Source: Streptomyces aquilus
GTDB taxonomy: Bacteria > Actinomycetota > Actinomycetes > Streptomycetales > Streptomycetaceae
NCBI RefSeq assembly: GCF_003955715.1
Contig: NZ_CP034463.1
Span: forward strand, 806,001 to 870,000
DNA: 64,000 nucleotides
Direction: 5' to 3'
The translations under genes were made by a program, and so were the position numbers. Shown in pieces: positions 13,452 to 64,000 of this stretch (the first letter of the stretch is position 1; every line of letters starts with the position of its first letter). The notes beneath the pieces are model-generated. The model was given only the letters and a program-made list of their open reading frames with translations, made no database searches and was not told the DNA's origin.

Positions 13452-14408
13452 TCACGACTTGGGCAGCGACCGGGCGATCGTGACGGAGGACGAGGCGAGG
13501 GCGGTCCGACCGTCCTCGATGTCCCAGAGCGAGTTCTGCAGCAGTCGCCCGAGTGTCCAGCCGGTCGCGCGTGCCCGGTCCAGACAGAGGACCTCGGTGA
13601 GAAGGTCGAAGCGGCGCCGCACCACGCGCGGGGCGTCGCCCTTGGCCACGACGTCGTCCCAGCCGCTGTCCAGAGCGGGCCAGAGGTCGAAGCCGGGGTC
13701 CCCGGCGAGCGGCTCGGGGTCGATGGCGAGCCAGGGTTCACGCTGCGCGGCCAGCACGTTGCCGTAGTGCAGATCCCAGTGCAGCAGCCGGTCCCCGGGT
13801 TCTGCGACCAACTCGGCCACCGCCGCCGCCCAGCCGCGCAGGAGCTGCCGTTGCGCGGGGTCGGCCAGCGCCGTGACCGCCTGGGGAACCTGCTCCAGCA
13901 TCTCGGTGGCGATGTCCCCGAGGCCGCGCAGTCCGGGTGGGGCGGGGACGCTCACCAGCCGGGCCTGCACGTCGGCGAGGATGCCGATCGCCACGTCGTC
14001 GTCCTCGACCGAGGTCAGAGTGCGGGTGGCGTCCAGCCGCTCCAGCACCATGCCGCCGCTGTCGGGATCGTGGCCGAGGAGCCGCACCGTCCCCACGCCG
14101 TTCCAGGTGCGCAGCCCGATGAGCGCGGCGGTGGTCTCCTCCCTGGGCAGGTGCAGCTTGAGCACCGCGCGCGTGCCGTCCCTGCGCAGCACCGGCAGCA
14201 CCAGGGAGGCTTCTCCGGCTGCCACCGCGCCGTCCCGCCGCAGCTCCCAGCGCTCCAGGAGTTCCGCGGCCAGGGCGGGCAGTCCGGCGATCCAGGCCCG
14301 TCCTTCCGCACCGAAGGCTCTGTCGTACGAAGCCACCAAGGACGTCGGGATCTCGACCGCTTCCAATGGACTCAAGTAGTGGGCCCTTCGGCGTGGATGG
14401 TGTGACAT
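13452..14408 (-). CDS. Aminoglycoside/hydroxyurea kinase-like phosphotransferase (APH(6) type)
   Basis: About 318 residues with a kinase-like fold. The catalytic loop is LLHWDLHYGNVL (HxDxxxxN pattern), followed by the metal site AIDPEPLAGDPGFDLWP, which is the arrangement of the APH_6_hur family. Upstream, AVLKLHLPREE carries the ATP-binding Lys. Family members phosphorylate streptomycin or hydroxyurea; many Streptomyces copies have no proven drug. The start is unsure: ATG 14408 is used, GTG 14426 is in frame, and neither has a clear ribosome site. Neighbours do not suggest an antibiotic cluster, so it is likely an intrinsic gene of unknown substrate. Confidence 0.85.
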   Translation of the reverse strand: MSHHPRRRAHYLSPLEAVEIPTSLVASYDRAFGAEGRAWIAGLPALAAELLERWELRRDGAVAAGEASLVLPVLRRDGTRAVLKLHLPREETTAALIGLRTWNGVGTVRLLGHDPDSGGMVLERLDATRTLTSVEDDDVAIGILADVQARLVSVPAPPGLRGLGDIATEMLEQVPQAVTALADPAQRQLLRGWAAAVAELVAEPGDRLLHWDLHYGNVLAAQREPWLAIDPEPLAGDPGFDLWPALDSGWDDVVAKGDAPRVVRRRFDLLTEVLCLDRARATGWTLGRLLQNSLWDIEDGRTALASSSVTIARSLPKS

Positions 14409-14455
14409 GCCCCGGTCGTCGTCCACGAAACAAACGGTACCCGGGGACGCGGACG

Positions 14456-23812: not shown

Positions 23813-26053
23813 GTGGCTGTGTTGCTGTACCGGATCGGACGGTGGGCCTTCCGGCGGCGTCGGCTCGTGGGCGGTGTGTGGCTGGGTGCCCTGGTGCTGG
23901 CCGTCGCCGCCGCCGCGCTGGCGCCGGCCGGAGAGGAGGAGGACCTCTCCATGCCCGGCACCGAGTCGCAGAAGGCGTTCGATTTGCTGGACGAACGGTT
24001 CCCGCAGAGCAACTCCCAGGGGGCGGAGGCCCGTCTGGTGTTCCGGGCGCCGGACGGCGAGCGGGTGACGGCCAGGGACAACAGGGCGGCGGTCGAGGAC
24101 GCGGTCGGCTCACTGGACCGGGGCGCTCAGGTCGCGTCGGCCACCGATCCCTACGAGAGCGGCGCCGTCAGCGAGGACGGCACCATCGCCTACTCCACGA
24201 TCACGTACACCGCGGACGCCGTGGACCTCACCGAGGCGTCGAAGGACGACCTGGCGAACGCCGCGCGAGGGGCCCGGGAGACGGGGCTGACCGTGGAGAT
24301 CGGTGGCTCCGCGCTGGACGCGGAGGAGGAGCCGGGCGGTACGACGGAGCTCGTCGGCGTGGCGGTCGCGGCGGTGGTGCTGGTGCTCGCCCTCGGGTCG
24401 CTGGTCGCGGCCGGGCTGTCGCTGCTGACCGCCTTCGTGGGCGTGGCCATCGCCTTCGGCCTGGTCTCGGCGCTCGCCGCGCCGCTGGGGCTGACCTCCA
24501 CCGTCGCGATCCTCGCCCTGATGCTGGGGCTGGCGGTCGGCATCGACTACGCGCTGTTCATCACCTCCCGCTTCCGCCACGAGTCCGCCCTGGGCCGGGC
24601 ACCCGAGGAGGCCGCGGGACGGGCCGTGGGCACGGCCGGCTCCGCCGTCGTCTTCGCCGGCGCGACCGTCTTCATCGCCCTGGTCGGCCTGGGGGTGGTC
24701 GGCATCCCCGAACTCACCAAGATGGGTCTGGGCGGCGCGGGCGCCGTGGCCCTCGCCGTCCTCGTCGCCCTCACCCTGGTCCCCGCGCTGTTCGGGTTCT
24801 TCGGCCGGCGGATGCTGCCCCGCGCCGTCCGCAAGGCGATGCGGTCGGGCGACGTGTCCCCGCGTCCGGTGCCCGACACCGGCCGGCCCGGACTCGGCGC
24901 CCGCTGGGCGCGGTTCGTGCTGCGCCGTCCGGTGCCCGTGCTGATGATCGCCGGGCTCGGTCTCGGGGCCGTGGCTCTTCCCGCCCTCAGCCTCGAACTC
25001 GGGCTGCCCGGAGACGAGTCGAAGTCGGTGGAGACCACGCAGCGCCGCGCCTACGACCTGTTGTCGGAAGGCTTCGGCCCCGGTTTCAACGGCCCGTTGA
25101 CCGTGGTCGTCGACACGGCGGGGTCCGGGGACGTGCGGGCCACCACCGACCTGGTCGTCAAGACCGTACGCGACGTCGACGGGGTCGCGTCGGTCGGCGA
25201 TCCGGTGCTCAGCCGGGGCGCGGACACGGCCGTCCTGACCGCCGTCCCGGAGACCGCGCCCAACAGCGGTACGACTAAGGACCTCGTGCACACGATCCGC
25301 AGCGCGGCCTCCGATGTCGAGGCCGACACGGGGGCCGACGTCCTGGTGACCGGCAGCACCGCGATGAACATCGACATCTCCCAGGCCATGTCCGACGCCT
25401 TGCTCCCTTACCTGACCGTCGTCATCGGCCTGGCCGTGCTCCTGTTGACGGTGGTCTTCCGCTCGGTCCTGGTCCCGGTCAAGGCGGCGCTCGGGTTCCT
25501 GCTGTCGGTGGGTGCCGCCTTCGGCGTCCTCGTGGCCGTCTTCCAGTGGGGGTGGGCGGCGGACCTGATCGGCATCGAACAGACCGGGCCGGTCATGTCG
25601 TTGATGCCGATTCTGATCATCGGCATCGTCTTCGGTCTCGCCATGGACTACGAGGTCTTCCTCCTGACCCGTATGCGGGAGGCGTACGTCCATGGCGCCG
25701 CGCCCGGCGACGCGGTCGTCAACGGCTTCCGGCACAGCGGCCGGGTGGTGGCCGCCGCCGCGATCATCATGATCAGCGTGTTCGCCGGATTCATCGGGAT
25801 GAGCAGCCCGACGATCCAGACGATGGGCGTCGGACTGGCCGCCGCCGTCGCCTTCGACGCCTTCGTGGTGCGGATGGCGATCGCGCCCGCGGTCCTGGCG
25901 CTGCTCGGCCGCCGGGCCTGGTGGCTGCCCCGTATCCTCGACCGTGTGCTGCCGAACGTGGACATCGAGGGGGAGGCTCTGAGCCGTCAAGTCCCGGACC
26001 GCGCAACCGAGTCGGACCCCGCGGTACGGCGACTCCCGGTCGGCCGGGACTGA
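23813..26053 (+). CDS. MMPL-family RND transporter
   Basis: A 746-residue membrane protein with the duplicated MMPL layout: TM1, an extracytoplasmic loop (about residues 40-180), a block of five or six helices with GLAVGIDYALFITSRFRHE, a second loop, and a second helix block with FGLAMDYEVFLLTRMREAY. The two conserved intramembrane GxxxDY segments are the proton-relay sites of the family. GTG 23813 has GGAG at 23800-23803. It is followed after 6 bp by a histidine kinase and response regulator, so a three-gene operon is likely. Family members export lipids or hydrophobic compounds. It is not adjacent to the mycolate-like cluster, so a link is only a possibility. Confidence 0.94.
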   Translation: MAVLLYRIGRWAFRRRRLVGGVWLGALVLAVAAAALAPAGEEEDLSMPGTESQKAFDLLDERFPQSNSQGAEARLVFRAPDGERVTARDNRAAVEDAVGSLDRGAQVASATDPYESGAVSEDGTIAYSTITYTADAVDLTEASKDDLANAARGARETGLTVEIGGSALDAEEEPGGTTELVGVAVAAVVLVLALGSLVAAGLSLLTAFVGVAIAFGLVSALAAPLGLTSTVAILALMLGLAVGIDYALFITSRFRHESALGRAPEEAAGRAVGTAGSAVVFAGATVFIALVGLGVVGIPELTKMGLGGAGAVALAVLVALTLVPALFGFFGRRMLPRAVRKAMRSGDVSPRPVPDTGRPGLGARWARFVLRRPVPVLMIAGLGLGAVALPALSLELGLPGDESKSVETTQRRAYDLLSEGFGPGFNGPLTVVVDTAGSGDVRATTDLVVKTVRDVDGVASVGDPVLSRGADTAVLTAVPETAPNSGTTKDLVHTIRSAASDVEADTGADVLVTGSTAMNIDISQAMSDALLPYLTVVIGLAVLLLTVVFRSVLVPVKAALGFLLSVGAAFGVLVAVFQWGWAADLIGIEQTGPVMSLMPILIIGIVFGLAMDYEVFLLTRMREAYVHGAAPGDAVVNGFRHSGRVVAAAAIIMISVFAGFIGMSSPTIQTMGVGLAAAVAFDAFVVRMAIAPAVLALLGRRAWWLPRILDRVLPNVDIEGEALSRQVPDRATESDPAVRRLPVGRD

Positions 26054-26059
26054 ACGGTC

Positions 26060-27325
26060 ATGACGCACAGGGGTGTTGAGGGACCGCGTCCACCCGGCAC
26101 GGGGTGGCGGGAAGCGGCGATCACGGGGACGGCGTTCGCGCTCTGTCTGCTCGGCGGCGTCCTCCACGACGACGGCCGCACCCTGGCGGCGCCGTCCGCC
26201 GCCGCCTACGTCGTCGCCGTGGTGTCCTGTGCCGTACTGCCGCTGCGGCACCGGGCACCCCTGGCCGCCATGGCGGTCACGACGGCGGCCGGCGTGCTCG
26301 CGCCGGCCCTGGGCCTCCTGTTGAGCCCGCTCATCGTGGCCCCCGCCGTGATCACCGCCCACTCGCTCACCGCGCGCACCGAACGGCACGCGGTGAGCGC
26401 GGTGTCGCTCACCTCCGTGGCCCTGCTGGTCGCCTCCACCCCGCTGCTCGGAGCCCTGTCCTGGAAGGACGCGAGCAGGATCGGGGTGGTGGCGGCGTTC
26501 CCCCTGGTGGCCGGCGTGCTCGGCCACTCGGCGCACAACCGGCGGGCCTATCTGGCGGCCGTGGAGGAGCGGGCCAAGCGCGCCGAGGAGAGCCGGGAGG
26601 GCGAGGCGCGCCGGAGGGTGGCCGAGGAACGGGTGCGCATCGCCCGGGAGTTGCACGACCTCGTGGCCCATCAGATCACCCTGGCCAACGCGCAGGCCAC
26701 GGTCGCCGCCCACCTCTTCGACGCCCGCCCGGAGCAGACTCGTAAGAGCCTGAAGGAGCTTGTGGAGACCACCGCCCACGCGCTCGACGAACTGCGCGCC
26801 ACCGTAGGGCTGTTGCGCCAGAGCGGGGACGCGGCGGCGCCCGCGGAACCGGCGCCGGGGCTGGCCCGGCTTCCGGCGCTCCTGGAGTCCTTCGGCCGCG
26901 CGGGGCTTCAGGTGACGGCACATCAGCAGGGCATTGTCCGGCCGCTGCCGCCAGGGGTGGACCTCACCGCCTACCGCATCATCCAGGAGGCCCTGACCAA
27001 CGTGACCAAGCACGCCGGCACCTCCGACGCCAGGGTCCAACTCACCTGGGACACCGACTACTTGACCGTCACCGTCGCCGACGACGGACGGGGCAATCCC
27101 ACGACGCCGGAGCCGTCCGCCGGACCGGGTGCGTCCACGCGGGCCGACCGGCCGCCCGGCTACGGTCTGATCGGGATGCGCGAACGGGCCACCGCGGTCG
27201 GCGGGCACCTGTCCGCGGGCAGACGCCCCGAGGGCGGCTTCCTCGTTTCCGCCCGGTTGCCCCTGCCGCCCGCCAAGGACACGGCGCACAGCACGGACCA
27301 CCAGGAAGCCGGGGAGGCGTCATGA
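26060..27325 (+). CDS. NarL-type sensor histidine kinase
   Basis: A 421-residue kinase with four or five N-terminal membrane helices, a short coiled-coil linker (EERAKRAEESREGEARRR) and a HisKA_3 dimerisation domain in which His199 lies in RELHDLVAHQ. The C-terminal HATPase_c has the N box (EALTNVTKHA) and a glycine-rich VADDGRGNP. There is no large extracytoplasmic sensor, so it probably reads a membrane or envelope signal. It starts 6 bp after the MMPL gene and overlaps the response regulator as ATGA, implying that the pair regulates the exporter operon. Confidence 0.94.
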   Translation: MTHRGVEGPRPPGTGWREAAITGTAFALCLLGGVLHDDGRTLAAPSAAAYVVAVVSCAVLPLRHRAPLAAMAVTTAAGVLAPALGLLLSPLIVAPAVITAHSLTARTERHAVSAVSLTSVALLVASTPLLGALSWKDASRIGVVAAFPLVAGVLGHSAHNRRAYLAAVEERAKRAEESREGEARRRVAEERVRIARELHDLVAHQITLANAQATVAAHLFDARPEQTRKSLKELVETTAHALDELRATVGLLRQSGDAAAPAEPAPGLARLPALLESFGRAGLQVTAHQQGIVRPLPPGVDLTAYRIIQEALTNVTKHAGTSDARVQLTWDTDYLTVTVADDGRGNPTTPEPSAGPGASTRADRPPGYGLIGMRERATAVGGHLSAGRRPEGGFLVSARLPLPPAKDTAHSTDHQEAGEAS

Positions 27326-43214: not shown

Positions 43215-43985
43215 TCAAGGCGCCGGCCCCGCCGTTCGCAGCCGGTCGATCTCGGCGAGCACGCGGTCCACGTGCGGACGTACCCGCGCCCGCAAGGCGG
43301 TGCTCCAACTCTCCTCTGAGTAGGGGGCGTTGAGATAGAGGTGCCTGGCGTGTTCGAGGACGGGGCGGTGGTCCGGCGGGAGTCGGGGGAGGGCCCAGTC
43401 GGCGGCCGTGTCCTTGGAGCTGATCCGGCCGGTGGCGAGCGTGGTCCAGATTCGGGCGAGGGTCAGCAGGACGTTGCGGGTGTCGCCGTCCAGGTCGGCG
43501 AGCAGGGCGGGGATGCCCGCCAGGCTCGCCCGGGCCAGGTCCGTCGGCGGCACCGGGTCGAGGAGCTGCGCCGGGCGCGGGCCGGTCAGCGGGTGGTCGC
43601 CGGTCAGTGTGGTGGTGATGAGCAGGCTCAGGTCGGGCATCGGCTCCGGCCGGGGGACCTCCCCGGCCTCGTAGGCGGCGCGCAGCCATTCGCCGTAGAG
43701 GAAGTCGCCGGTCGGCGGGTACCGCCAGGGCCGGACCTGGGACTGGACGACGGCGGTGAGCTCGACGGGGCGGGTGCCGTTCCCGGTGCCGGAGATCCGT
43801 AGCAGGCCGTCGAGGAGTGACCGGCGCTGTCCTTCCTCCATGGGCTGCCGGATGACGACCAGGATGTCCACGTCGCTGGCCGGTCGGAGGCCGCCCAGCA
43901 CGGCCGAGCCGTGGAGATAGCTGCCGAGGGCGTCTCGCCCCAGCACACGGTCCACCAGCGCCACGATCTCCCGCACCTGATCCAC
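43215..43985 (-). CDS. AadA-like aminoglycoside nucleotidyltransferase family protein
   Basis: A 256-residue nucleotidyltransferase. HGSAVLGGLRPASDVDILVV carries the GS-x9-DxD catalytic motif seen in ANT(3'') enzymes, followed by PVELTAVVQSQ, which supplies the third carboxylate, and a C-terminal helical DUF4111 domain. Start GTG 43985 behind GGAGAGG. The family adenylylates streptomycin and spectinomycin, but chromosomal Streptomyces copies vary in substrate, so resistance is a possibility only. No biosynthetic cluster is adjacent. Confidence 0.87.
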   Translation of the reverse strand: MDQVREIVALVDRVLGRDALGSYLHGSAVLGGLRPASDVDILVVIRQPMEEGQRRSLLDGLLRISGTGNGTRPVELTAVVQSQVRPWRYPPTGDFLYGEWLRAAYEAGEVPRPEPMPDLSLLITTTLTGDHPLTGPRPAQLLDPVPPTDLARASLAGIPALLADLDGDTRNVLLTLARIWTTLATGRISSKDTAADWALPRLPPDHRPVLEHARHLYLNAPYSEESWSTALRARVRPHVDRVLAEIDRLRTAGPAP

Positions 43986-46355: not shown

Positions 46356-47933
46356 GTGACTCAAGAGGCGACGACATCCGGCCCGCCGCAGGCGGGTGCG
46401 CACGTGCCCCGGCGCAGCACCGCGGAACGCATCGACGACCTGCACCGGCGCCGTGAGCAGGCGCTGACGGCGGGCGGGCCGCGCGGACGGGGGGAGTTCG
46501 GGGCCCGGGAGCGGGTCGAGCGGCTGGTGGACAAGGGGTCCTTCACCGAGACCGGGCTGTTCGTGCGGGCCCGGGCCGACGGGAGCGGTGGCCGACGCCC
46601 CCACGGCGACGGCGTGGTCACCGGCTTCGGTACGGTCGACGGCCGCCGGGTCTGCGTGTTCGCCCAGGACTCCACGGTCTTCGGCGGCAGCATGGGCGAG
46701 GCGTTCGGCGAGAAGACCGTCGCGCTGATGGACCTCGCCCTGAAGACCGGCTGCCCGGTCGTCGGGCTCAACGACTCCGGCGGTGCCCGCATCCAGGAGG
46801 GCGTCGCCTCTCTCGCCCTCTACGCCGAACTGGTACGCCGCAACGTCCAGGCGTCCGGCGTGATCCCACAGCTCTCCGTCGTGCTGGGCCCCTGCGCCGG
46901 CGGGGCCGCCTACTCCCCCGCGATCACCGACTTCACGGTGATGGTCGACGGCGCCTCGCACATGTTCGTCACCGGCCCCGACGTCATCGAGGCCGTCACC
47001 GGCGAGCGGGCCACCGCCGAGGAGCTGGGCGGCGCCCGCACCAGCAACGCCGTCAACGGCAACGCACACTTCCTCGCCGCCGACGAGGAGGACGCCCTGG
47101 ACGTCGTACGCGAGCTGCTGTCGTATCTGCCGGCCAACAACCTGGAACCGCCACCGGAGTACGCCCCCGGCGACGCCCCGGCCGGAGACGTTCTGGACGC
47201 CGTCGTACCGGACCGGCTCGGGCAGGCCTACGACATGCGGGAGATCCTGCGCGCGGTCGTCGACGACGGTGAACTGCTCTACGTCCAGGAGCTGTTCGCG
47301 CCGAACATCCTCTGCGCCCTGGGGCGTGTCGAAGGCCGGTCGGTCGGGGTCGTCGCCAACCAGCCGCTGCACGCCGCCGGAGTCCTCGACATCGACGCGT
47401 CCGAGAAGGCCGCGCGATTCGTACGGTTCTGCGACGCGTTCGGCATTCCGCTGCTGACGTTCGCCGACGTCCCCGGCTATCTGTCCGGCGTACGGCAGGA
47501 GCGGGGCGGCATCATCCGCCGCGGCGCCAAGCTGCTGTACGCCTACGCCGAGGCCACCGTCCCCAAGGTCACGGTCGTGGTCCGCAAGGCGTACGGCGGC
47601 GGGTACGCGGTGATGGGGTCCAAGCACCTCGGCGCCGACATCAACCTCGCCTGGCCCAGCGCCCGTATCGCCGTGATGGGCGCCGAGGGTGCGGTGGGGG
47701 TCCTGCACCGACGCGAACTGGCCGCCGCCGACGATCCCGTCGCGCTGCGCGCCCGCCTGGTCGCCGCGTACGAGCGCACCCACGGCACGCCCTATCTCGC
47801 CGCCGAACGCGGATACGTCGACGCCGTCATCGCCCCGCGCGACACCCGCGACCACATCCGCCGCGCCCTGGCCGCCCTGCGCGGCAAACGCGCGCCGCTG
47901 CCGCAGCGCAGGCACGGCAACATCCCGCTCTGA
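46356..47933 (+). CDS. Acyl-CoA carboxylase carboxyltransferase (beta) subunit, AccD4-like
   Basis: A 525-residue carboxyltransferase with both crotonase-like halves. Biotin/acyl-CoA pocket features include LNDSGGARIQEGVASLALYA and LGPCAGGAAYSPAITDF in the first half, and FADVPGYLSGVRQE, RKAYGGGYAVMGSKHL in the second. It transfers CO2 from biotin to an acyl-CoA to make malonyl-, methylmalonyl- or long-chain carboxyacyl-CoA. No biotin-carrying alpha subunit is in the window. Start GTG 46356 is set by GGAGG at 46346-46350; the GTG at 46350 overlaps the ribosome site. Beside an AMP ligase and a condensing PKS it matches the AccD4 role of supplying the extender of mycolate condensation; this is inferred. 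Confidence 0.93.
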   Translation: MTQEATTSGPPQAGAHVPRRSTAERIDDLHRRREQALTAGGPRGRGEFGARERVERLVDKGSFTETGLFVRARADGSGGRRPHGDGVVTGFGTVDGRRVCVFAQDSTVFGGSMGEAFGEKTVALMDLALKTGCPVVGLNDSGGARIQEGVASLALYAELVRRNVQASGVIPQLSVVLGPCAGGAAYSPAITDFTVMVDGASHMFVTGPDVIEAVTGERATAEELGGARTSNAVNGNAHFLAADEEDALDVVRELLSYLPANNLEPPPEYAPGDAPAGDVLDAVVPDRLGQAYDMREILRAVVDDGELLYVQELFAPNILCALGRVEGRSVGVVANQPLHAAGVLDIDASEKAARFVRFCDAFGIPLLTFADVPGYLSGVRQERGGIIRRGAKLLYAYAEATVPKVTVVVRKAYGGGYAVMGSKHLGADINLAWPSARIAVMGAEGAVGVLHRRELAAADDPVALRARLVAAYERTHGTPYLAAERGYVDAVIAPRDTRDHIRRALAALRGKRAPLPQRRHGNIPL

Positions 47934-48002
47934 GCCCTGAGGCCCTCCCAGCGATCCGCACCGAGGCACATCCCTCCCCCGCGACGTCAGGAGCCACATC
48001 CC

Positions 48003-49871
48003 ATGGACCGCCGCCACCCCCCGCTCTCCCCCGCGTGCCGGACCCTGCCCCAGTACGTACGGCACTGGGCCGACACCATCCCCGACCGGCGCGCCCTCAC
48101 CTTCGTCGACTTCCCGGCGCCGGGCTCCCGCGGCGTCCACCGGACGCTGACCTGGCGGCGCCTGGACCTGCGGGTGCGGGCGATCGCCGCCCGGCTCGCC
48201 GCACAGGCCGAACCGGGTTCGCGCGTCGTGGTGTTGTGCCCGCAGGGCACGGAGTACGTCACCGGGTTCCTGGCCGCGCTCACCGCGGGACTGGTCGCCG
48301 TACCGCTGTATCCGCCCGGCCTGCCCGGGCACGGCGACCGGCTCTCGGCTGTCCTGGCCGACGCCCGTCCCACGGCCGTCGTGACCACGAGCCGGGTGGC
48401 GAACGAGGTGCGGGAACTGGTGGCCGGGAGCGGGACGCGGATCGTCTGCGCCGACGAGGTGCCCGACGACGAGGCCGGCGACCGGCCGCCGGTCGACGTG
48501 GACGCCGAAGCGCTCGCCTACCTCCAGTACACGTCCGGTTCGACACGTGCCCCGGCGGGCGTGGAGATCACCCACGCGAACGTCGTCGCCAACGCCGGGC
48601 AGGCCCTGGCGGCGTACGGCGCCGACACCGGTCCGGTGACCTGTGTGGGCTGGCTGCCGCTCTACCACGACATGGGGCTGGTGCTCAGTGTCGCCGCGCC
48701 CGTGGTGCGCGGGGCGCTGTCGGTGCTGATGGACCCGGCCGCCTTCCTCACCGAGCCCGCACGGTGGCTGCGGCTGCTCGCCGCCCATCCGCGGGCCATC
48801 GGGGCCGCGCCGAACTTCGCGTACGACTACTGCGCCGGCGCCGTCACCGACGGCCAGAAGGCGGACCTGCGTCTCGACGGGGTCATCGCGCTGATCAACG
48901 GGAGCGAACCGGTGCGCCCGGGCACCGTCGACCGTTTCCAGGCGGCCTTCGCCGACCGGGGTCTGCCGGTCACCGCGCACTGCCCCTCGTACGGGCTCGC
49001 CGAGGCCACGGTCTTCGTCAGCGCCGCCCGGCCCGGGCAGCCGCTCGGCCGGTTCGCGCTCGACCGGGACGCGCTCGCCGCCGGGAAGGCCCTGCCCGCA
49101 CGGCCCGACGACCCGAGAGCCGTCCTGCTGGCGGGCTGCGGCACCCCGGCGGGTCAGCGGGTACGGATCGCCGACCCCGTCAGCCGGACCGTCCTGCCCG
49201 AGGGGGAGGTCGGGGAGGTCTGGGTGCAGGGGCCCAACGTCGGGCGCGGCTACTGGAACCGGCGGGAGGAGAGCGAGCGGGTCTTCGGCGCCGCCTTCGC
49301 CGGTGGGGCCGACGCACCGGACGGGCGGTGGCTGCGCACCGGCGACCTGGGGGCGGTGCTGGACGGGCAGTTGATCGTCACGGGGCGGCTGAAGGATCTC
49401 GTCATCGTCGACGGCCGCAACCACTATCCGCAGGACCTGGAGGCCACCGCCCAGGACGCGCATCCGGCGGTGCGGCGCGACCGGCTCGCGGCGTTCGCCG
49501 TGCCGGGCGGGACGAGTGGGACGGGCGAACGGGTGGTCCTGGTGGCCGAGCACGTACGGGCCACCTCCCTCGCCTCGCTCGATGTACCGGCCGTGGTACG
49601 GGCGGTGCGCGGCGCGGTCTCCACACGGCACGGGCTGCGGCTCGCCGAAGTCGTGCTGGTGCCACCGGGGGCGGTCGCCCGCACGTCCAGCGGGAAGGTG
49701 TCCCGGGCGCTTACTCGGGCGCGGTATTTGGAGGGGGCGTACGGGCGGGAGGGCGGAGGGGAGACGGGCAGCGGGTCAGGGGGTGGCGCCGCGTCTGATG
49801 ACGCGGCCGGCGACACCCCGGGTGCGGCCCCCGGTGCCTCGGCCCACATCACGTCGAGGGCCGTCGGGTGA
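48003..49871 (+). CDS. Fatty acyl-AMP ligase, FadD32-like
   Basis: A 622-residue adenylating enzyme. It has the P-loop YTSGSTRAPAGV at about residues 176-187, the Y-G-x-x-E motif (SYGLAEATVFVS), RTGDLGAVLDGQL, and the catalytic-Lys region (ARTSSGKVSRA). The N-terminal opening (TLPQYVRHWADTIPDRRALT) and SYGLAEATVF fit the FAAL subfamily that loads fatty acids directly on an ACP instead of CoA. A Gly/Ser/Ala-rich 35-residue tail follows the last domain and overlaps the PKS start (GTGA), so the two proteins are made in stoichiometry. It would charge the N-terminal ACP of the PKS. Confidence 0.93.
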   Translation: MDRRHPPLSPACRTLPQYVRHWADTIPDRRALTFVDFPAPGSRGVHRTLTWRRLDLRVRAIAARLAAQAEPGSRVVVLCPQGTEYVTGFLAALTAGLVAVPLYPPGLPGHGDRLSAVLADARPTAVVTTSRVANEVRELVAGSGTRIVCADEVPDDEAGDRPPVDVDAEALAYLQYTSGSTRAPAGVEITHANVVANAGQALAAYGADTGPVTCVGWLPLYHDMGLVLSVAAPVVRGALSVLMDPAAFLTEPARWLRLLAAHPRAIGAAPNFAYDYCAGAVTDGQKADLRLDGVIALINGSEPVRPGTVDRFQAAFADRGLPVTAHCPSYGLAEATVFVSAARPGQPLGRFALDRDALAAGKALPARPDDPRAVLLAGCGTPAGQRVRIADPVSRTVLPEGEVGEVWVQGPNVGRGYWNRREESERVFGAAFAGGADAPDGRWLRTGDLGAVLDGQLIVTGRLKDLVIVDGRNHYPQDLEATAQDAHPAVRRDRLAAFAVPGGTSGTGERVVLVAEHVRATSLASLDVPAVVRAVRGAVSTRHGLRLAEVVLVPPGAVARTSSGKVSRALTRARYLEGAYGREGGGETGSGSGGGAASDDAAGDTPGAAPGASAHITSRAVG

Positions 49872-52800
49872 GGGGCGTCGACGCGGCGGTGTTGCGGCGG
49901 CTCATCGCCGAGCGGGTGGCTTCCTGGCTCGGCACCGCCCCGGAGGACGTGCCGATGGACCGGCAGCTCGCGGAGCTCGGCATGTCGTCGCGGGACGCGA
50001 TCGCCCTGACCGCGGAGTTGTCCCGGGTCACGGGCTGCGAACTGCCCCCGACCCTGCTGTGGGAGGCACCGACCGGGCAGGCGCTGGTGGCGCGGCTGTG
50101 CGGCACGGCTCCCGGTCCCGCGCCGCTGATGCGGGCGCCGGGCGCCCCTGGTGAGCCGGTGGCGGTCATCGGCGTCGGCTGCCGGCTGCCCGGCGGAGTG
50201 CACGGCCCGGAGGACTACTGGCGGCTGCTCTGCGAGGGCGGGGACGCGATCCGGCGGGTGCCCGAGGACCGGTGGCGGGACTTCACCGCGTTCCCGCCCG
50301 CCGACGCCCACCCTTACGGCGGTTATCTCGACGACATCGCCGGGTTCGACGCGGACTTCTTCCGTATCACGCCGCGCGAGGCCGCCGTGATGGACCCGCA
50401 GCAGCGGATGCTGCTGGAGGTCGCCCACGAGGCACTCGACCACGCCGCCGTCCCGGCCTCCTCCCTCGCCGGCACCGCCACGGGTGTCTTCGTCGGCGTC
50501 TCCGCCCCGGAGTACGGGCAGTTGACCGGCGCGGACCCCGACGCCGTCGATCCCTGGGCGCCGGCCGGTGCGGCGCTGAGCGTCACGGCAGGTCGGTTGG
50601 CGTACGTCCTGGACACGCGCGGGCCGAGCCTGGCGGTGGACACCGCCTGTTCGTCCTCGCTGGTCGCGGTGCACCACGCGTGTGTCAGTCTGCGGGCGGG
50701 CGAGAGCGACATGGCGATCGCCGCCGGGGTCAACCTGCTGCTGTCGCCCGCCGTCACCGTCGCCTTCCGGCGGGCGGGCGCCCTCGCGCCGGACGGCCGG
50801 TGCAAACCGTTCTCCACGGCGGCCGACGGCATCGGACGCGCCGAGGGCTGCGCGGCCGTGGTCCTCAAGCGGCTGTCGCACGCCGAGCGGGACGGCGACC
50901 GGGTGCTGGCGGTGATCCGTACGACGGCCGTCAACTCCGACGGACGGTCCAACGGCCTCATGGCCCCCAACCCGGCCGCCCAGCGCGCCCTGTTGGAGAC
51001 GGCCTACGCGCGAGCCGGGATCGCCCCCGCACACGTGGACCTCGTCGAGGCGCACGGCACCGGCACCCCGCTCGGCGACCCGATCGAGGCGGCCGCGCTC
51101 GACGCGGTCCTCGGACAGGGTCGCGATCCCGATCAGCCGCTGCTGCTGGGCTCGGTGAAAGGCAACCTCGGCCATCTGGAAGCCGCCGCGGGGGTCGCCG
51201 GGCTGGTGAAGACCGTGCTCGCCCTGCACCACGACCTGATCCCTCCGTCCCTGCACTGCGCGGACGGCAGCACCCTGCCCGGCCCCCGGCTGCGGGTCGT
51301 GAGCGAACCCGAGCCGTGGCCCCGCTACAGCGGCACGGCCACCGCCGGAGTCTCCGGATTCGGCTTCGGCGGGACCAACGCCCATGCGGTGCTGGAGGAA
51401 TGGCGAACCCCGCTGCCCGCGCCGCACGACGATCCCGCCGCCCGTCTGCACCTCCTCTCCGACACCGACCCCGAGCGCCTCCGCGACACCGCGGGCCGCC
51501 TCGCCACCTGGTTGCGCATGCCAGAGGGAGGCGCGGCGCACCCCGCCGACGTGGCGCGGACACTCGCCGGACGTACCGGCCGCGGCCCGGTGCGGGCCGC
51601 GATCGTGGCCCGCGACCGCGACGAACTCGCCACCTCCCTCGACGAGTTGGCCGCCGGCCGCCCGGACGGGCGCGTCACGATCGGCGACCGGGACCTCGTC
51701 GGGCCCGGCACCGTGTGGGTCTTCTCCGGATACGGCACCCAGTGGCCCGGCATGGGACGCCGGCTGCTCGCCGAGGAACCGGCGTTCGCCGCGGCGGTGG
51801 AGAAGCTCGACCCGCAACTCGCGGCCGAGTGCGACGGCCTGTCCCTGTACGACCACCTCGCGGCCGGCACCGGCCTGGACCGTCTCGACACCGCGCAACC
51901 CCTGCTGTTCGGCATGCAGTTGGCGCTCGCCGAACTGTGGCGCGCGTACGGCGTGGAACCGGCGGCCGTGATCGGTCACTCCATGGGCGAGGTGGCGGCA
52001 AGTGTGTGCGCCGGCGCCCTGGACGTGGCGGACGGGGCGCGGGTCATCGCCGTACGGGCTCGGTTGCTGAGCGGACTGCGGGGCGGCGCGATGGCCGTCG
52101 TGGATCTGGAGGACCGGCAACTCGCCGACCTGGAAAGGGACTTCCCGGACGTGCGGGTGGCTGTTCACTCCTCGCCGCGGCAGAAGGTCGTCACGGGGAC
52201 GGAGGCGGCGGTGGGCCGTCTGGTCGACCGTCTGCGGGAGGAGGGCCGGGTGGCGCGGGCGATGCGGGTCGTGGGCGCCGGGCACTCCCCGCAGGTCGAC
52301 CCGCTGCTGCCGGGGCTGACCGAGGCGCTGGCCGGGGTGCGGGGGCGGCGGGCACGCGTGCCCGTGTACTCCACCGTCCTCGACGACCCGCGCGGCACCA
52401 GCGCGTTCGACGCCGCGCACTGGGCGGCCAACCTGCGCAGACCCGTCCGCCTCGACCGGGCCGTCGCCGCGGCGGCCGCCGACGGTCACACCGCGTTCGT
52501 CGAGATCTCACCCCATCCGGTGCTCACGGGCGCCGTCGCCGACACCGTGCCGGACGCGCTCGCGTCGGCCACGCTGCGGCGTGACGCGGACGGACCGGCC
52601 GCGTTCTTGGGCCAGTTGGGCGCCCTGTACGCGGCGGGCCAACGACTGCCGCTGCCACCCGGCCGGGTCATCGACCTGCCGAGGCCGCGGTGGCGGCATG
52701 TGCGGCACTGGTGGACGGACGGAAGGGCCGGGGACTCAGCCCGACGGCACGCGACTGCCGACGCGGGTCCGGTCGAACATGGCCGAGGCCAGGGGCAGTT

Positions 52801-53905
52801 CGCCGCCGCCCCGGCCGCCGGAGGCCAGGCGCACCCGCCCGAGCACTCCCCCGTCCTGGCCCGCCTGAGCCACCACATCGCCACGGTGTCCGGCCACTCC
52901 CCGACCCGCGTGGTCCCCACGGCCGCGCTCGCCGATCTCGGCCTGGACTCCCTCATGGCGGTCCGTGTCCGTACGGCCGTCGAGCGGGAGTTCGGCGTCG
53001 AACTGCCGCTGCGTGACCTGCTCGGTGCCGGCACCGTCGCCGACGCGGCCGTCCGCATCGAGCGGGCCCTCCCTCGGTCGGCCGGTGGCGCGACCCCGCG
53101 TCCCTTGCGCGCCACCGGCTCCCGGCCACCGCTGTTCCTCGTGCACGCGGCCGGCGGTCGGAGCACCGTGTATCAGCCACTCGCCGAACGACTCGGCGCC
53201 GACCAACCGGTGTTCGGCCTCGACCGGCTCGACGAGTCCCGCACGGTCACGGACAAGGCCCGCCGCTACGCCGACGCGATCCGTTCCAGCCACCCCACCG
53301 GGCCGCTCCTGCTGGGTGGTTGGTCCTTCGGCGGCTTCGTCGCCCAGGAGACGGCACGGCAACTGGCCGCCACGGGACGGGACATACCGCTCGTGGTGCT
53401 CATCGACTCCGTACGACCCCTCCCCCGGCCCGGGCAGACACCGGGCGATCGGATACGGGCCCACTTCGAGGGCTTCGCGCGCTACGTCGCCGAAACCTAC
53501 GGCGTACGCCTTGAGTTGCCGTACGACGAGCTGGTGGCGATGGACGACGACAGGGACCGTATCGACGCCGTGCTGGCCACCGTACGGGAGGCCGCCGACG
53601 TGCCGCGTGCCGCCCTGGAGCACCAGCGGGCCTCCTACCTGGACCTGAGGATCGGCGAGGCGCATCGGCCGGAACGGTACGACGGCCGCGTGCTGCTCTG
53701 CCGCGCCACCGAACCCGCGCCGCACACGGTCCGCGATCCGGCGTACGAACGCGACGACGAGGCGCTGGGCTGGGACGAGGTGTGCCCGCGGCTGGAGGTC
53801 GTCCGGGTGCCCGGCCATCATCTGGCGCTGCTCGACCCGCCGTACGTCGACGAGATCGCCGCCCGCCTCGGCCGAGCGCTCGCCGCACGCGTCCCCGCTC
53901 CCTGA
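49868..53905 (+). CDS. Type I polyketide synthase with ACP-KS-AT-ACP-TE layout (Pks13-like)
   Basis: A 1345-residue condensing enzyme. ACP1: residues about 10-78, phosphopantetheine Ser41 in LGMSSRD. KS: about 96-515, with Cys261 in TACSSSLVA, His396 in HGTGTPLGD and His436 in GNLGHLEA. AT: about 613-900, with Ser705 in GHSMGEVAAS. ACP2: about 992-1060, Ser1028 in LGLDSLMAV. TE: about 1095-1345, Ser1153 in GGWSFGGF. There is no KR, DH, ER or MT. This order equals mycobacterial Pks13 but is shorter (Pks13 is about 1730 residues). It should join a fatty acyl starter with a carboxyacyl extender once and release a beta-keto acid. GTG start overlaps the ligase stop. Confidence 0.95.
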   Translation: MRGVDAAVLRRLIAERVASWLGTAPEDVPMDRQLAELGMSSRDAIALTAELSRVTGCELPPTLLWEAPTGQALVARLCGTAPGPAPLMRAPGAPGEPVAVIGVGCRLPGGVHGPEDYWRLLCEGGDAIRRVPEDRWRDFTAFPPADAHPYGGYLDDIAGFDADFFRITPREAAVMDPQQRMLLEVAHEALDHAAVPASSLAGTATGVFVGVSAPEYGQLTGADPDAVDPWAPAGAALSVTAGRLAYVLDTRGPSLAVDTACSSSLVAVHHACVSLRAGESDMAIAAGVNLLLSPAVTVAFRRAGALAPDGRCKPFSTAADGIGRAEGCAAVVLKRLSHAERDGDRVLAVIRTTAVNSDGRSNGLMAPNPAAQRALLETAYARAGIAPAHVDLVEAHGTGTPLGDPIEAAALDAVLGQGRDPDQPLLLGSVKGNLGHLEAAAGVAGLVKTVLALHHDLIPPSLHCADGSTLPGPRLRVVSEPEPWPRYSGTATAGVSGFGFGGTNAHAVLEEWRTPLPAPHDDPAARLHLLSDTDPERLRDTAGRLATWLRMPEGGAAHPADVARTLAGRTGRGPVRAAIVARDRDELATSLDELAAGRPDGRVTIGDRDLVGPGTVWVFSGYGTQWPGMGRRLLAEEPAFAAAVEKLDPQLAAECDGLSLYDHLAAGTGLDRLDTAQPLLFGMQLALAELWRAYGVEPAAVIGHSMGEVAASVCAGALDVADGARVIAVRARLLSGLRGGAMAVVDLEDRQLADLERDFPDVRVAVHSSPRQKVVTGTEAAVGRLVDRLREEGRVARAMRVVGAGHSPQVDPLLPGLTEALAGVRGRRARVPVYSTVLDDPRGTSAFDAAHWAANLRRPVRLDRAVAAAAADGHTAFVEISPHPVLTGAVADTVPDALASATLRRDADGPAAFLGQLGALYAAGQRLPLPPGRVIDLPRPRWRHVRHWWTDGRAGDSARRHATADAGPVEHGRGQGQFAAAPAAGGQAHPPEHSPVLARLSHHIATVSGHSPTRVVPTAALADLGLDSLMAVRVRTAVEREFGVELPLRDLLGAGTVADAAVRIERALPRSAGGATPRPLRATGSRPPLFLVHAAGGRSTVYQPLAERLGADQPVFGLDRLDESRTVTDKARRYADAIRSSHPTGPLLLGGWSFGGFVAQETARQLAATGRDIPLVVLIDSVRPLPRPGQTPGDRIRAHFEGFARYVAETYGVRLELPYDELVAMDDDRDRIDAVLATVREAADVPRAALEHQRASYLDLRIGEAHRPERYDGRVLLCRATEPAPHTVRDPAYERDDEALGWDEVCPRLEVVRVPGHHLALLDPPYVDEIAARLGRALAARVPAP

Positions 53906-53930
53906 ACCGACCCGACCGCGAGGAGCCGCC

Positions 53931-54875
53931 ATGCCCGACCGCATCACCAGAATGTCCCGGCGCACTGTCGCCAAGGCGGCGACCGCCGCCGGTCTGGCCG
54001 CGCTGTTCGGCACCGCCACCGGCGTCGGCCGTGCCCGGGCGGCGACGCGGGTGGGGGCGCGCACGTTCGACGTGTCCGTGGCCTCGGCCGCCCTGCGCCG
54101 CAGCGCGCCGGTGCGGCTGATCCTGCCGACGAGCTTCGACGCGACGCCGACCCGGAGGTATCCGGTGCTGTGCCTGCTGCACGGCGCCCACGACGACTAC
54201 ACGTCCTGGACGCGTGAGACGGACATCGAGGCCTTCACGGCGGGCCGCGACCTGATCGTGGCGATGCCGGACGCGGGGCCGACCGGGATTCCCAGCGTCT
54301 GGCGCGACGGCGTCGACTACGAGACGTTCCAGGTGAGAGAGGTCCCCGCGCTGCTGGCCCGGGACTACCGGGCCTCCGGCGTCATGGCCGTCGCCGGGGT
54401 GTCGACCGGGGGGTACGGGGCGATGGCGCACGCGGCCCGGCATCCGGGCGTGTTCGCCGCCGCGGCCTCCTACAGCGGGGTCCTGGACACCACGGCGCTC
54501 GGCGTGCCCGCCATCGTGGACGCGATCGTGGCCCGGGAGAACCTGCCCCCCGGCTCCCTGTGGGGCCATCCGATCCTGAACCTCCTCACCTGGCGGGAGT
54601 TCAATCCCCGGGCCCGGGCCGAGGGGTTGCGCGGCACACCGTTGTACGTCTCCCAGGGCAGCGGTCTGCTCGGGGGCGGCGGCGATCCGCTGCCCGGGGT
54701 GCTGGAGAGCGCGCTGTGGCCCTCCGCGCACGGGTTCACCGACGCGCTCGCGCGCCTCGGCATCTCCGTGGACAGCCACTTCTACGCGGGAGGAGGGCAC
54801 AACTGGGCTTACTGGAAAGGCGAGTTCGCCCGGTCGTGGCCGATGCTCGCCCGTGCCCTGGGCGTACCGGAGTGA
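53931..54875 (+). CDS. Tat-exported antigen-85-like esterase/acyltransferase
   Basis: A 314-residue alpha/beta hydrolase exported by a Tat signal (RMSRRTVAKAATAAGLAALF, cleaved near ARAAT). The nucleophile is Ser158 in GVSTGGYGAMA, and the catalytic His290 is in GGGHNWAYWKGEF; this latter stretch resembles the HSWxYW region of mycobacterial antigen 85 mycolyltransferases and the FrmB/esterase D group. It begins 25 bp after the PKS and has GAGGAG as its ribosome site. Position suggests transfer or hydrolysis of the PKS product outside the membrane. True mycolyltransferase activity is unproven; a plain esterase is the main alternative. Confidence 0.9.
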   Translation: MPDRITRMSRRTVAKAATAAGLAALFGTATGVGRARAATRVGARTFDVSVASAALRRSAPVRLILPTSFDATPTRRYPVLCLLHGAHDDYTSWTRETDIEAFTAGRDLIVAMPDAGPTGIPSVWRDGVDYETFQVREVPALLARDYRASGVMAVAGVSTGGYGAMAHAARHPGVFAAAASYSGVLDTTALGVPAIVDAIVARENLPPGSLWGHPILNLLTWREFNPRARAEGLRGTPLYVSQGSGLLGGGGDPLPGVLESALWPSAHGFTDALARLGISVDSHFYAGGGHNWAYWKGEFARSWPMLARALGVPE

Positions 54876-54997
54876 CGTCGGTGCCGTGGGGGCACGGAAC
54901 GGAGCGGAGGGGACGCCCGTCCAACCAGGGACGCCCCACCCGCCCCACGGGCAACCCCGCGCGGGCGAGCCGACTCCGGGCGAAAGGAGTGTCCGCG

Positions 54998-56218
54998 ATG
55001 GCGTTCCCCACTCCGCGCGGTCTGACCGGCGGCCCCGGACCCACCACGGTCCCGGCCGAACTGGCCGAGCTGCTGCGCGCCCAACTCGCCGCCGTCGCCG
55101 ACCAGGTGGAGGAGGAGGTCCGCCGCCAGGTGCCCGAGTACGCCGTGCCGCGCGACGGTCCGTACGGCAGGAATCTCCGGGCCGGTGTGGTGCAGGCGCT
55201 GACCCTGTTCGTGGACCACATCGCCGACCCGGGCGACGACGGGGAGTCGATCGCCGCGACGTACTACGCCCTCGGGCGCGGCGTGGCCCAGGAGGGCCGC
55301 AGCCTGGAGGTGCTCCAGTCCGCGCTGCGGGTGGGCGGCATGCACGCCTGGCGGTGCATGGGCCGCACCGCGGAGACGCTCGGGCTGGACTCGACGGTCG
55401 TGGCCGCCCTGGGCGAACTGGCGTTCCAGACGGTGCACGAGGTCGCCGAGGCCGCTGCCGCCGGGTACGCGGAAGCGCAGCTGCGCAGCTCCGACGAGCT
55501 GGAGCGGCGCCGTCGCCGGCTGCTCGACCTGCTGCTGGGTGCGGACCCGCCGGCTCCGGAGGCGGTGCGGAAGCTGGCACACGGCGCACGGTGGACGGTG
55601 CCGCGGCAGGTCGCCGTCGTCGCCCTCGCGGGCGGCCCCGACCGGGGTGAGGAGGACCGGCCGCTGGCCTCGTCGGGGGCGCTGGTGGACATGGAGTCCC
55701 GGCCGCCCCGCATGCTGGTGCCCGATCCCGACGGCTCCGGGCGGTGGGCCGGGCGCAGCTTCACGCTCGCGTTGCGGGGCCGGCCGGCCGCGATCGGGCC
55801 GACGGTGCCGCTCGCCGAGGCGGCGCAGTCCCTGCGGTGGGCCACGCGAGCCCTGGGCCTGATGGGGCGCGGTGTCCTTCCCCGGCAGGAGGTGGTGCGG
55901 TGCGCCGATCATCTGTCGACGCTGCTGCTCCACGCGGACGAGCCGCTGCTCGGCCGGTTGCGGGCCCGCGCCCTCGCCCCGCTCGACGCGGTGTCGGCGG
56001 GGCAGCGCGCCCGGCTCACCGAGACCCTGCTGGTCTGGCTGCTCAACGGCAGCAACGTCCCGGACGTCGCCGCCCGGCTGCACCTCCATCCGCAGACCGT
56101 CCGCTACCGACTCCGGCAGCTGGAGAAGCTGTTCGGCGACGCGCTGCGCGATCCGGACGCCCGTCTGGAGATGATCCTGGCGCTGCGCGCGGAATCCGCG
56201 CAGCCACAACAGGAATGA
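54998..56218 (+). CDS. PucR/CdaR-type transcriptional regulator
   Basis: A 406-residue regulator. The N-terminal two-thirds is a helical sensor plus a GGDEF-like fold (AAAAGYAEAQLRSSDELE, then LPRQEVVRCADHLSTLLL), and the C-terminal 60 residues are the PucR HTH (LLNGSNVPDVAARLHLHPQ, TVRYRLRQLEKLFGD). ATG 54998 is set by AAAGGAG at 54983-54989. It is placed between the antigen-85-like esterase and the cutinase on the same strand, so it probably controls the lipid cluster, the cutinase or both. The inducer is unknown. Confidence 0.92.
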   Translation: MAFPTPRGLTGGPGPTTVPAELAELLRAQLAAVADQVEEEVRRQVPEYAVPRDGPYGRNLRAGVVQALTLFVDHIADPGDDGESIAATYYALGRGVAQEGRSLEVLQSALRVGGMHAWRCMGRTAETLGLDSTVVAALGELAFQTVHEVAEAAAAGYAEAQLRSSDELERRRRRLLDLLLGADPPAPEAVRKLAHGARWTVPRQVAVVALAGGPDRGEEDRPLASSGALVDMESRPPRMLVPDPDGSGRWAGRSFTLALRGRPAAIGPTVPLAEAAQSLRWATRALGLMGRGVLPRQEVVRCADHLSTLLLHADEPLLGRLRARALAPLDAVSAGQRARLTETLLVWLLNGSNVPDVAARLHLHPQTVRYRLRQLEKLFGDALRDPDARLEMILALRAESAQPQQE

Positions 56219-56353
56219 CATCGGCACTCACCACAGAACGAAAAAGCGCGGCATTTCCATCATCGCGTTCATAACACCCCTTCAGGCATCGCGAATACGT
56301 TGACGAAGTCCCCTTTCGCAGGCGCTTCCCGCGCCCCCATCGCGGAGGATTCC

Positions 56354-56995
56354 ATGCGTATCCGTTTATGCCTGGCCGCGCTCTCGCTCGTCGGCGGAGC
56401 CGGCGTCGCCACCCTCGCCACACCCACGGCGTCCGCCGCGGCCTGCACGGACGTAGACGTCGTCGCGGCCCGCGGCACGTTCGAACCGGGCACGCTCGGT
56501 TTCATCGTCGGAGACCCCGTGTATTCGGCACTCCAGCGGAAAATCAGCGGAAAGACCCTCTCCAGCTACAAGGTGAACTACCCGGCCGACCTCTCCCTGA
56601 CGTCGGCCGCGCAGGGCAACGCGGATCTGGTGAATCACGTCAATCAGCAGGCCGCCGCCTGCCCGAACCAGCGTTTCATTCTGGTCGGCTATTCGCAGGG
56701 GGCGAACGTCGTCGACAACTCCCTCGGCATCAGCAGCGAGGGCGCGGTGGTCGGCAGTCCCATCGTCGCCACCCTGCCGGCCGCGGTCGAACCGCGCGTC
56801 GCGGCCGTGCTGCTGTTCGGCAATCCGATCCGGGCCCTCGGCAAGAGCGTCACCGGCGTGTACCAGAGCCGCACCATCGACTTCTGCGCCACGGGCGACC
56901 CCGTCTGCCAGAGCGGCGGAACCGACGTGGGGGCGCACCTCGGCTACACGGCGAACGCCGACGCGGCGGCCGCTTTCGCCGCGGGCAAGGTCTGA
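56354..56995 (+). CDS. Secreted cutinase/serine esterase
   Basis: A 213-residue secreted enzyme. The signal peptide ends near TASAA, leaving Cys31 as the first disulphide residue. The catalytic triad is Ser114 (LVGYSQGAN), Asp182 (CATGDPVCQS) and His195 (DVGAHLGYT). This is the cutinase fold, cleaving polyester or lipid esters. ATG 56354 behind GGAGG (56344-56348). In mycobacteria the cutinase Culp6/Rv3802c lies next to fadD32 and pks13, and the same grouping is seen here. A role in remodelling envelope lipids is inferred; cutin degradation is the alternative. Strong terminator follows. Confidence 0.95.
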   Translation: MRIRLCLAALSLVGGAGVATLATPTASAAACTDVDVVAARGTFEPGTLGFIVGDPVYSALQRKISGKTLSSYKVNYPADLSLTSAAQGNADLVNHVNQQAAACPNQRFILVGYSQGANVVDNSLGISSEGAVVGSPIVATLPAAVEPRVAAVLLFGNPIRALGKSVTGVYQSRTIDFCATGDPVCQSGGTDVGAHLGYTANADAAAAFAAGKV

Positions 56996-63085: not shown

Positions 63086-64000
63086 TTAAATGCCCGATAC
63101 GCTTCTGTGACCTTCGTCCCTTCCCGGCGTGAGGCGCGCGACGACTCCCGTACGGAAGTAGCCGTCGTCGGTGAAGGAACGCGCGTCGAGGTCCGGTGCC
63201 CGATAGTAGCCGCGCACCGTGTACGGCCCACGGACCAGGAGTTCACCGGGCTCGCCCTCGGGTACGCCCTTGCCCTCGGCGTCGACGATCCGGACCTCGT
63301 CGTCGGGCGAGAGCGGCCGGCCGTGCGGCTCGGACGCCGAGGTGAGGATGAGCGGCCCCTCCGGCATGGCCTGGACCCGCTGCACGCGGCAGGCCGATGC
63401 CGTCCCCAGCTCTTCCGCGGTGGCCCCCTCCGCGGGCCCGACGCCCAGCTGGACGAGTCGCAGGCTTCCCAAGTCGGCTCCGTTTGCGGGGAGTTCACGG
63501 AGCCAGTGCCGGGCGTCAGCGGGGGCGAGCGAAGCGTGGGTGACCCGCTCCCGTTCGATGAGCGTGAGGCATTCCGCCGGTGTCCCGGTCTCGGCCTGGA
63601 CGACGGTGCCGCCGGCCATGAGGGTGCCGATGATGCCGGGGCAGCCGAGCGTGAGGGTGAATTCGGCGGACGGCGCCGCCAGATACACGTCGTCCTCGGC
63701 GAGCGCTGCCGCCTCGGCGGCCGCCCGCGCCTGGCAGGCGTAGTCGTCGTGGGTGCGGGGGACGAGTCGGGGCGTGTCGGTGGTGTCGGCGGCGAGCAGG
63801 AAGAACGCCACCTCGTCGGCGCTCCGCACGAGGGGGCGGTCGGGCGGGGCGTCGACGGAGGCCAGCGGGAAGTAGTGGCAGCCTGACGCATCGGTCGCCA
63901 GGCCGCCGTAAGGGGAGGCGGTACCGGGCGGCTCGTAGCTGAACACCCGCCGCAGGAAGGGCCATCGGGCGGCGATGTCCGCGGCCAGGCCCCGGTGGTC
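63086..64000 (-). CDS. Truncated, degenerate aryl-AMP-ligase-like protein (cut at window edge)
   Basis: 304 residues are visible; the frame is open to the window edge. The sequence resembles 2,3-dihydroxybenzoate-AMP ligases (DhbE/EntE): RLVPRTHDDYACQARA, CPGIIGTLMAGGTVV, GRPLSPDDEVRIVDAEG, VRGPYTVRGYYRAPDLDARS and DDGYFRTGVVARLTP. The nucleotide P-loop region is degraded (LAADTTDTPRL instead of SGGTTGxPKL), and the protein stops right after the N-terminal domain, so the C-terminal catalytic-Lys domain is missing. It is probably inactive as an adenylase, either a pseudogene or a repurposed domain. The 5' end is outside the window. Confidence 0.75.
   Translation of the reverse strand, partial: DHRGLAADIAARWPFLRRVFSYEPPGTASPYGGLATDASGCHYFPLASVDAPPDRPLVRSADEVAFFLLAADTTDTPRLVPRTHDDYACQARAAAEAAALAEDDVYLAAPSAEFTLTLGCPGIIGTLMAGGTVVQAETGTPAECLTLIERERVTHASLAPADARHWLRELPANGADLGSLRLVQLGVGPAEGATAEELGTASACRVQRVQAMPEGPLILTSASEPHGRPLSPDDEVRIVDAEGKGVPEGEPGELLVRGPYTVRGYYRAPDLDARSFTDDGYFRTGVVARLTPGRDEGHRSVSGI

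Follow-up and report, generated by a model that had tools for sequence, protein, structure and literature searches.

A conserved six-gene block in Streptomyces with a Pks13-type condensase and a probable alpha-alkyl beta-ketoacyl product

We describe a block of six genes in Streptomyces aquilus whose products, judged from their sequences, probably make up a stand-alone Pks13-type machine for Claisen condensation that would yield an alpha-alkyl beta-ketoacyl product, a reading to which we give a probability of roughly two in three. The block lies within the window, a 64,000-nucleotide stretch covering positions 806001-870000 of a 10.39-Mb single-contig genome, and all six genes are encoded on the + strand between window positions 46356 and 56995. 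An AccD-type acyl-CoA carboxylase beta subunit (46356-47933; PF01039, 598 bits; the reading frame is also open from 46350) is followed by a fatty acyl-AMP ligase (FAAL; 48003-49871; PF00501, with FAAL families as its top NCBIfam models) and by a polyketide synthase (PKS) of 1345 amino acids (49868-53905; identified by its Pfam domains), the start of which overlaps the FAAL stop by four bases (49868-49871). These are succeeded by a PF00756 acyl hydrolase/acyltransferase (53931-54875), which has an export leader that reads by eye as twin-arginine-like, by a PucR-type transcription regulator of 406 amino acids with a Pfam HTH_30 domain (54998-56218), and by a cutinase-family protein with a secretion-type leader that spans 213 amino acids from the ATG at 56354 (56354-56995; PF01083, 140.5 bits). 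An earlier note on this DNA had described this gene set on a single strand, and every one of its members is present there. A promoter and terminator scan of the block returned nothing above chance.

To place the block among its relatives, we used a contig scan with one genome per species, in which Streptomyces antibioticus (94% identity in the PKS) and S. justiciae (93%) came closest to the window. The scan confirmed 126 relatives, from the best 80 of which 79 loci were retained, comprising 65 same-type loci from Streptomyces and 14 more distant ones. Among the 65 Streptomyces loci, 54 carry the complete six-gene block in identical order and on the same strand, and the remaining 11 are truncated by contig ends. 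The neighbours are thus conserved together, as the proposal of a functional gene set had anticipated, and the six-gene block is a real conserved unit rather than a chance arrangement. High-identity copies of the two genes that flank it in the window, g44955 and g57228, occur in loci L003 and L004 alone, and therefore the surroundings of the block vary. Six loci considered as block members (L063, L068, L069, L073, L077 and L081) were rejected, each having two to three PKS modules without accD or the acyltransferase. In a separate survey of 121 Streptomyces genomes, 16 gave an acyltransferase match at E <= 1e-60; 13 of these carriers, our own genome included, have 73-100% identity and three have 56-57%, and the two 73-100% carriers that we opened both contain all six genes. 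We found no virus relatives of the block, leaving viral carriage unsupported, and plasmid carriage was rejected because not one plasmid record reached 80% coverage of the block at a single place and the best ones stopped at 12%. A search of the open-licence PMC literature found no account of the Streptomyces six-gene block. Elsewhere in the window we noted an MMPL-family transporter (23813-27322, +) beside a histidine kinase, approximately 20 kb upstream of the block, as well as AadA_C aminoglycoside adenylyltransferase-like and APH_6_hur kinase-like genes (43218-43985, -, and 13455-14426, -).

Evidence that bears on the proposed chemistry comes from the PKS. Its Pfam domain order is PP-binding, KS, AT, PP-binding and thioesterase, no KR, DH or ER domain is found in it by Pfam, and its catalytic motifs are intact; it therefore has the ACP-KS-AT-ACP-TE arrangement, free of reductive domains, that we used to define a Pks13-like enzyme. 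Among solved structures Pks13 is its best match (826 bits), ahead of mycocerosic acid synthase (659 bits). Phylogenies of thinned sequence sets place it accordingly. A KS-AT tree of 59 rows recovers a Pks13-type clade of 36 rows that includes the block PKS, with support of 100/100 and with modular PKSs outside it, and a KS tree of 84 of the 114 KS sequences unites the block, Pks13 and sister PKSs with six further rows in a clade of 42 rows (100/96). The earlier note had asked whether the KS and AT would group with Pks13 rather than with unrelated modular PKSs, and both trees answer in favour of Pks13. An unusual SRD-type motif in the N-terminal ACP and a GWS[FL]GG motif in the TE are likewise common to the block PKS, Pks13 and the sister PKSs.

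Membership of this clade does not make the enzyme a Pks13 orthologue. The top NCBIfam model for the block PKS is mycolic_Pks13 (NF040607, an equivalog model), but its score of 1161.8 bits falls under the cut-off of 2100, whereas a mycolate-locus Pks13, that of L129, scores 2691.8 with the same model. We consequently rejected orthology. The best KS-AT tree puts Pks13 closest not to the block PKS but to the PKSs of Herbihabitans and of family f46 (96/92), while the KS tree weakly joins the block PKS, Pks13 and L112 (81/57), and the AU test does not reject a single clade that unites the block PKS with Pks13 (p-AU 0.248). As the sisters that lie nearer to Pks13 in the best KS-AT tree bear DH and KR domains, that topology would mean that DH-KR was lost in parallel. 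Three Nocardia relatives (L075, L078 and L080) were rejected as true Pks13 enzymes, for they group with modular PKSs in both the KS and KS-AT trees. Separately, the PKSs of L143, L144 and L148, which belong to family f4 as do the Pks13 genomes, make up a separate basal branch of the Pks13-type clade in the KS tree.

What the condensase joins to its starter chain would depend on the AT and on the carboxylase that supplies it. At the AT position where usual modules carry YASH or HAFH, all 17 block PKS rows have GAGH, and all 38 Pks13 rows, which come from 33 genomes, have GA[GS]H. Among the 11 sister PKS rows, seven have GAGH and four have GAAH or GGAH instead. Elsewhere GA[GS]H is found in three of 46 other PKS rows, two of which (L145 and L147) fall inside the Pks13-type clade. 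For the AccD, plain similarity suggests an alternative, in which the protein, as a copy of propionyl-CoA carboxylase, supplies methylmalonyl-CoA to a PKS whose product would be a plain 2-methyl-3-oxo fatty acid: its closest solved structure is a propionyl-CoA carboxylase (694 bits, compared with 658 bits for the MccB structure 5inf), and a paralogue in the same genome is 64% identical. The AccD tree, however, groups block, sister and AccD4 proteins together (93/89), apart from PccB- and AccD5-like rows, and the residues that govern chain length also differ from those of short-chain enzymes. PMC5187497 reports that Asp421/422 of PccB is replaced by Ala in the medium-chain enzyme MccB, and that MccB has Gly161 where every short-chain enzyme in that comparison has Phe. 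The window AccD has Ala at the PccB Asp422 position, aligned with the Ala of 3ibb, the D422A PccB structure, and Val at the Phe gate. Ala occupies the first position in 59 of 60 block AccDs, the other being unread, and Val the second in 58 of 60, the exceptions being one Ala and one residue read as E that is probably a parsing error. All four sister AccDs and all eight AccD4 proteins also have Ala at the Asp422 position and lack the Phe gate, whereas the other AccD paralogues keep the Phe in 18 of 18 cases and have Ala at the Asp422 position in none of 18 (20 rows minus two copies of L112 and L123). With neither Asp at 422 nor the Phe gate, the block AccDs would class as medium- or long-chain carboxylases. 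MccB resembles the block AccD in having Ala at PccB Asp421/422 and in having lost the Phe gate, and differs in that its gate is Gly161 rather than Val; the partner of the block AccD is a Pks13-type condensase. Because both chain-length residues are changed as in AccD4 and in MccB, and the AT has the GAGH of Pks13 in place of YASH or HAFH, we regard the short-extender alternative as improbable. Overall, both the AccD and the AT show sequence features that would suit long alkyl extender units.

The ligase, cutinase and acyltransferase genes resemble those of the mycolate system, but orthology to them is not supported. The fadD32-pks13-accD4 mycolate locus of Mycobacteriales, like the block, sets a FAAL, a Pks13-type PKS and an AccD with long-chain residues side by side, the KS-AT regions of the two belong to one clade, and PF00756 enzymes are present in the eight mycolate loci that we compared, as they are in the block. 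The mycolate condensation locus also has culp6 and PS1/Ag85-type genes nearby. Unlike the mycolate locus, the block encloses a PucR gene and has a different gene order, in addition to a PKS that scores below the Pks13 cut-off. Its FAAL matches an acyl-CoA synthase (444 bits), FadD23 (421) and FadD32 (412) among solved structures and scores 574 bits with the NCBIfam FAAL subfamily, below the cut-off of 922. In the FAAL tree, which holds five true block rows including that of the window (L005_3094 and L057_858, also labelled as block rows, being other adenylation proteins), the block FAAL joins the sister FAALs and some additional ones with modest support, and the mycolate-locus FAALs form a separate clade (99/98); the ligase thus falls outside the FadD32 clade. 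No second FAAL-like match above 52 bits turned up in the same genome, the next best reaching 51.9 bits. Part of an AMP-binding (adenylation) gene lies close to the window edge (63089-63946, -). The cutinase scores 24 bits with the Culp6 model against a cut-off of 570, and its best matches are cutinase-like proteins of families f4, f18 and f46 at 42-50% identity.

The best solved-structure match of the exported acyltransferase is Protein PS1, a corynebacterial mycoloyltransferase, aligned over residues 44-312 with an E value of 5.9e-37, followed by the esterase 4rgy (3.3e-21) and then Cmt1 (1.1e-18). The PF00756 tree unites the block enzymes with their sisters, the mycoloyltransferases and a small number of additional rows, at 86/95 support relative to other PF00756 proteins. 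Within this group the mycoloyltransferases (PS1/Ag85) form their own 100/100 clade, and the block acyltransferase lies in a separate clade beside it, not inside. The earlier description of an antigen-85-like exported hydrolase therefore stands as to relatedness and fails as to membership. Collectively, with a PKS below its cut-off, a FAAL outside the FadD32 clade, a cutinase that is not Culp6 and an acyltransferase beside the mycoloyltransferases, the data do not support orthology of the block to the mycolate locus. The same genome encodes a second acyltransferase of this kind at C1:882762-883664 (-; L206), approximately 12.8 kb past the window end and 41% identical.

A further gene of possible extracellular function recurs at the edge of the block. 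Among the best 80 of 126 relatives, 53 of the 65 Streptomyces loci have a seventh gene that is convergent beyond the cutinase (for example, L005 17247-18968, -), and the encoded protein has a secretion leader, a length of mostly 570-599 amino acids, a GGHSLGG motif and no Pfam match. Of the 12 loci that lack it, four offer enough space (L017, L042 and the window's nearest relatives, L003 and L004) and eight lie in stretches that by their lengths end too soon; it is absent from the window, and a search of the window's genome, run without a positive control, did not find it. The predicted structure of a 573-amino-acid example was uninformative (mean pLDDT 30), and comparison with two sister-locus proteins gave no likeness worth naming.

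Two further accounts of the block were considered. One holds that the product is a secreted small molecule and not an envelope lipid: the TE would hydrolyse the thioester, the resulting alpha-alkyl beta-keto acid would either decarboxylate to a long-chain ketone or cyclise, the outcome serving as a signal or antibiotic, and the exported enzymes would tailor it or shield the producer. Transporter and glycan genes are missing among the six, carriage is patchy at 16 of 121 genomes, three sister loci contain MFS transporters, and in the eight single-contig genomes among the 16 carriers the acyltransferase lies within the outer fifth of the chromosome, a region where specialised metabolism is usually encoded. 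We nonetheless think this account unlikely, since leader-bearing acyltransferase and cutinase genes are both kept in all 54 complete loci, a further hydrolase-like protein accompanies 53 of 65, and PS1 is the closest solved structure of the acyltransferase. The other account makes the block a scavenging set: the cutinase and esterase would break down plant cutin or suberin to fatty acids, which PucR would sense and the FAAL and PKS would modify, and the resemblance to the mycolate locus would be fortuitous. A cutinase-family protein and a PucR regulator are indeed in the block, and some carriers are plant-associated, S. turgidiscabies among them; the Pks13-type KS-AT clade and the long-chain AccD residues indicate synthesis instead, and none of 11 sister loci has a cutinase match above 45 bits in the stretch compared, such that we hold scavenging to be very improbable.

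The sister loci themselves come from Herbihabitans (Pseudonocardiaceae) and from families f17 and f18, with the f46 PKS placed beside them. They share the Pks13-type KS-AT with the block, and in the stretch compared (n = 11) we found a FAAL in eight, a related acyltransferase in 10, an AccD in four and a PucR in four. PucR, which is present in all 54 complete Streptomyces loci, also stands close to the PKSs of L116, L118, L119 and L121 among the sister loci. Unlike the block, all four sister PKSs scanned by Pfam have the order ACP-KS-AT-DH-KR-ACP-TE, and the three sister loci examined for them (L060, L265 and L268) have MFS transporters. Given DH and KR in the nearest non-Streptomyces relatives scanned, the product of those loci need not equal that of the block. 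PMC5187497 mentions a cryptic cluster, widely conserved in Amycolatopsis, that has a single module and an MccB homologue, and this cluster may correspond to the sister loci. Closer to the block are the three Streptomyces loci with 56-57% identical acyltransferases (L303, L304 and L305), which we call type B. They have a FAAL-PKS-acyltransferase arrangement, a PucR in two of them and the AT motif AAGH in all three, and their PKSs join those of the block, type A, in one KS-AT clade (100/100). No accD or cutinase matches were found in the fetched type-B stretches, that of L303 ending approximately 0.9 kb past the FAAL, so accD and the cutinase appear dispensable to the wider system.

From these comparisons a route for the block can be proposed. 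The FAAL would activate a fatty acid as acyl-AMP and pass it to the N-terminal ACP and thence to the KS. The AccD, working with a biotin carboxylase encoded elsewhere, would add a carboxyl group to another acyl-CoA of medium or long chain length, giving the 2-carboxyacyl unit that the AT would load onto the C-terminal ACP. The KS would then condense both chains into an alpha-alkyl beta-ketoacyl thioester, which the TE would release to a hydroxyl acceptor, by analogy with Pks13, or else by hydrolysis. Outside the cell the mycoloyltransferase-like enzyme may shift the acyl group between acceptors and the cutinase may hydrolyse or remodel the ester, with PucR controlling the gene set. For Pks13 itself, PMC9210659 describes condensation of a FAAL-loaded chain with a 2-carboxyacyl-CoA and TE release onto polyols, trehalose being preferred. 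We infer the substrate lengths, condensation product, extracellular transfer, regulation and role, and indeed most steps of this pathway, from sequence comparison, and the release mode, acceptor and export from the presence of the exported acyltransferase and cutinase.

The alpha-branched beta-keto product is a well-founded part of this scheme because the KS-AT shares a clade with Pks13, its neighbours are conserved and the AccD and AT have long-extender features. Neither an exporter nor a reductase is encoded among the six genes, and with no reductase in the set the immediate product is expected to be of the beta-keto kind. As regards an Rv2509/CmrA-type reductase, no SDR or ketoreductase Pfam match was obtained in 42 window stretches (7 + 5 + 30, the last 30 at E <= 1e-8), some of them off-frame and together a subset of the open reading frames. 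Twelve of the 65 loci have a PF00248 aldo/keto reductase gene close to the block (for example, L007 19481-20425, -), the product of which could act in trans as a reductase in those 12 strains. Of the alpha-branched lipid outside the mycolate lineage that the earlier note envisaged, the beta-keto form is thus favoured, and the beta-hydroxy form finds no reductase among the six genes and a candidate near few of the loci.

A broader picture can be sketched more tentatively, and we see the odds as being somewhat against it in full: about one tenth of Streptomyces species might use a Pks13-type condensase to produce an alpha-alkyl beta-keto lipid, either exported or bound to the cell surface, which a mycoloyltransferase-like enzyme would fix in place, as a mycolate-like system outside the mycolate lineage whose DH-KR domains were lost in parallel with those of Pks13. 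Mycolic-acid-type condensation is usually regarded as a hallmark of one bacterial order, and PMC13324839 calls Pks13 conserved across Corynebacteriales. Conservation of the same enzyme roles in Streptomyces, and the presence in other families of sister PKSs that carry DH-KR, would have consequences for ideas on the origin of Pks13. The Streptomyces block would also offer tractable hosts for mycolate-type chemistry and would predict a class of Streptomyces lipids that can be searched for.
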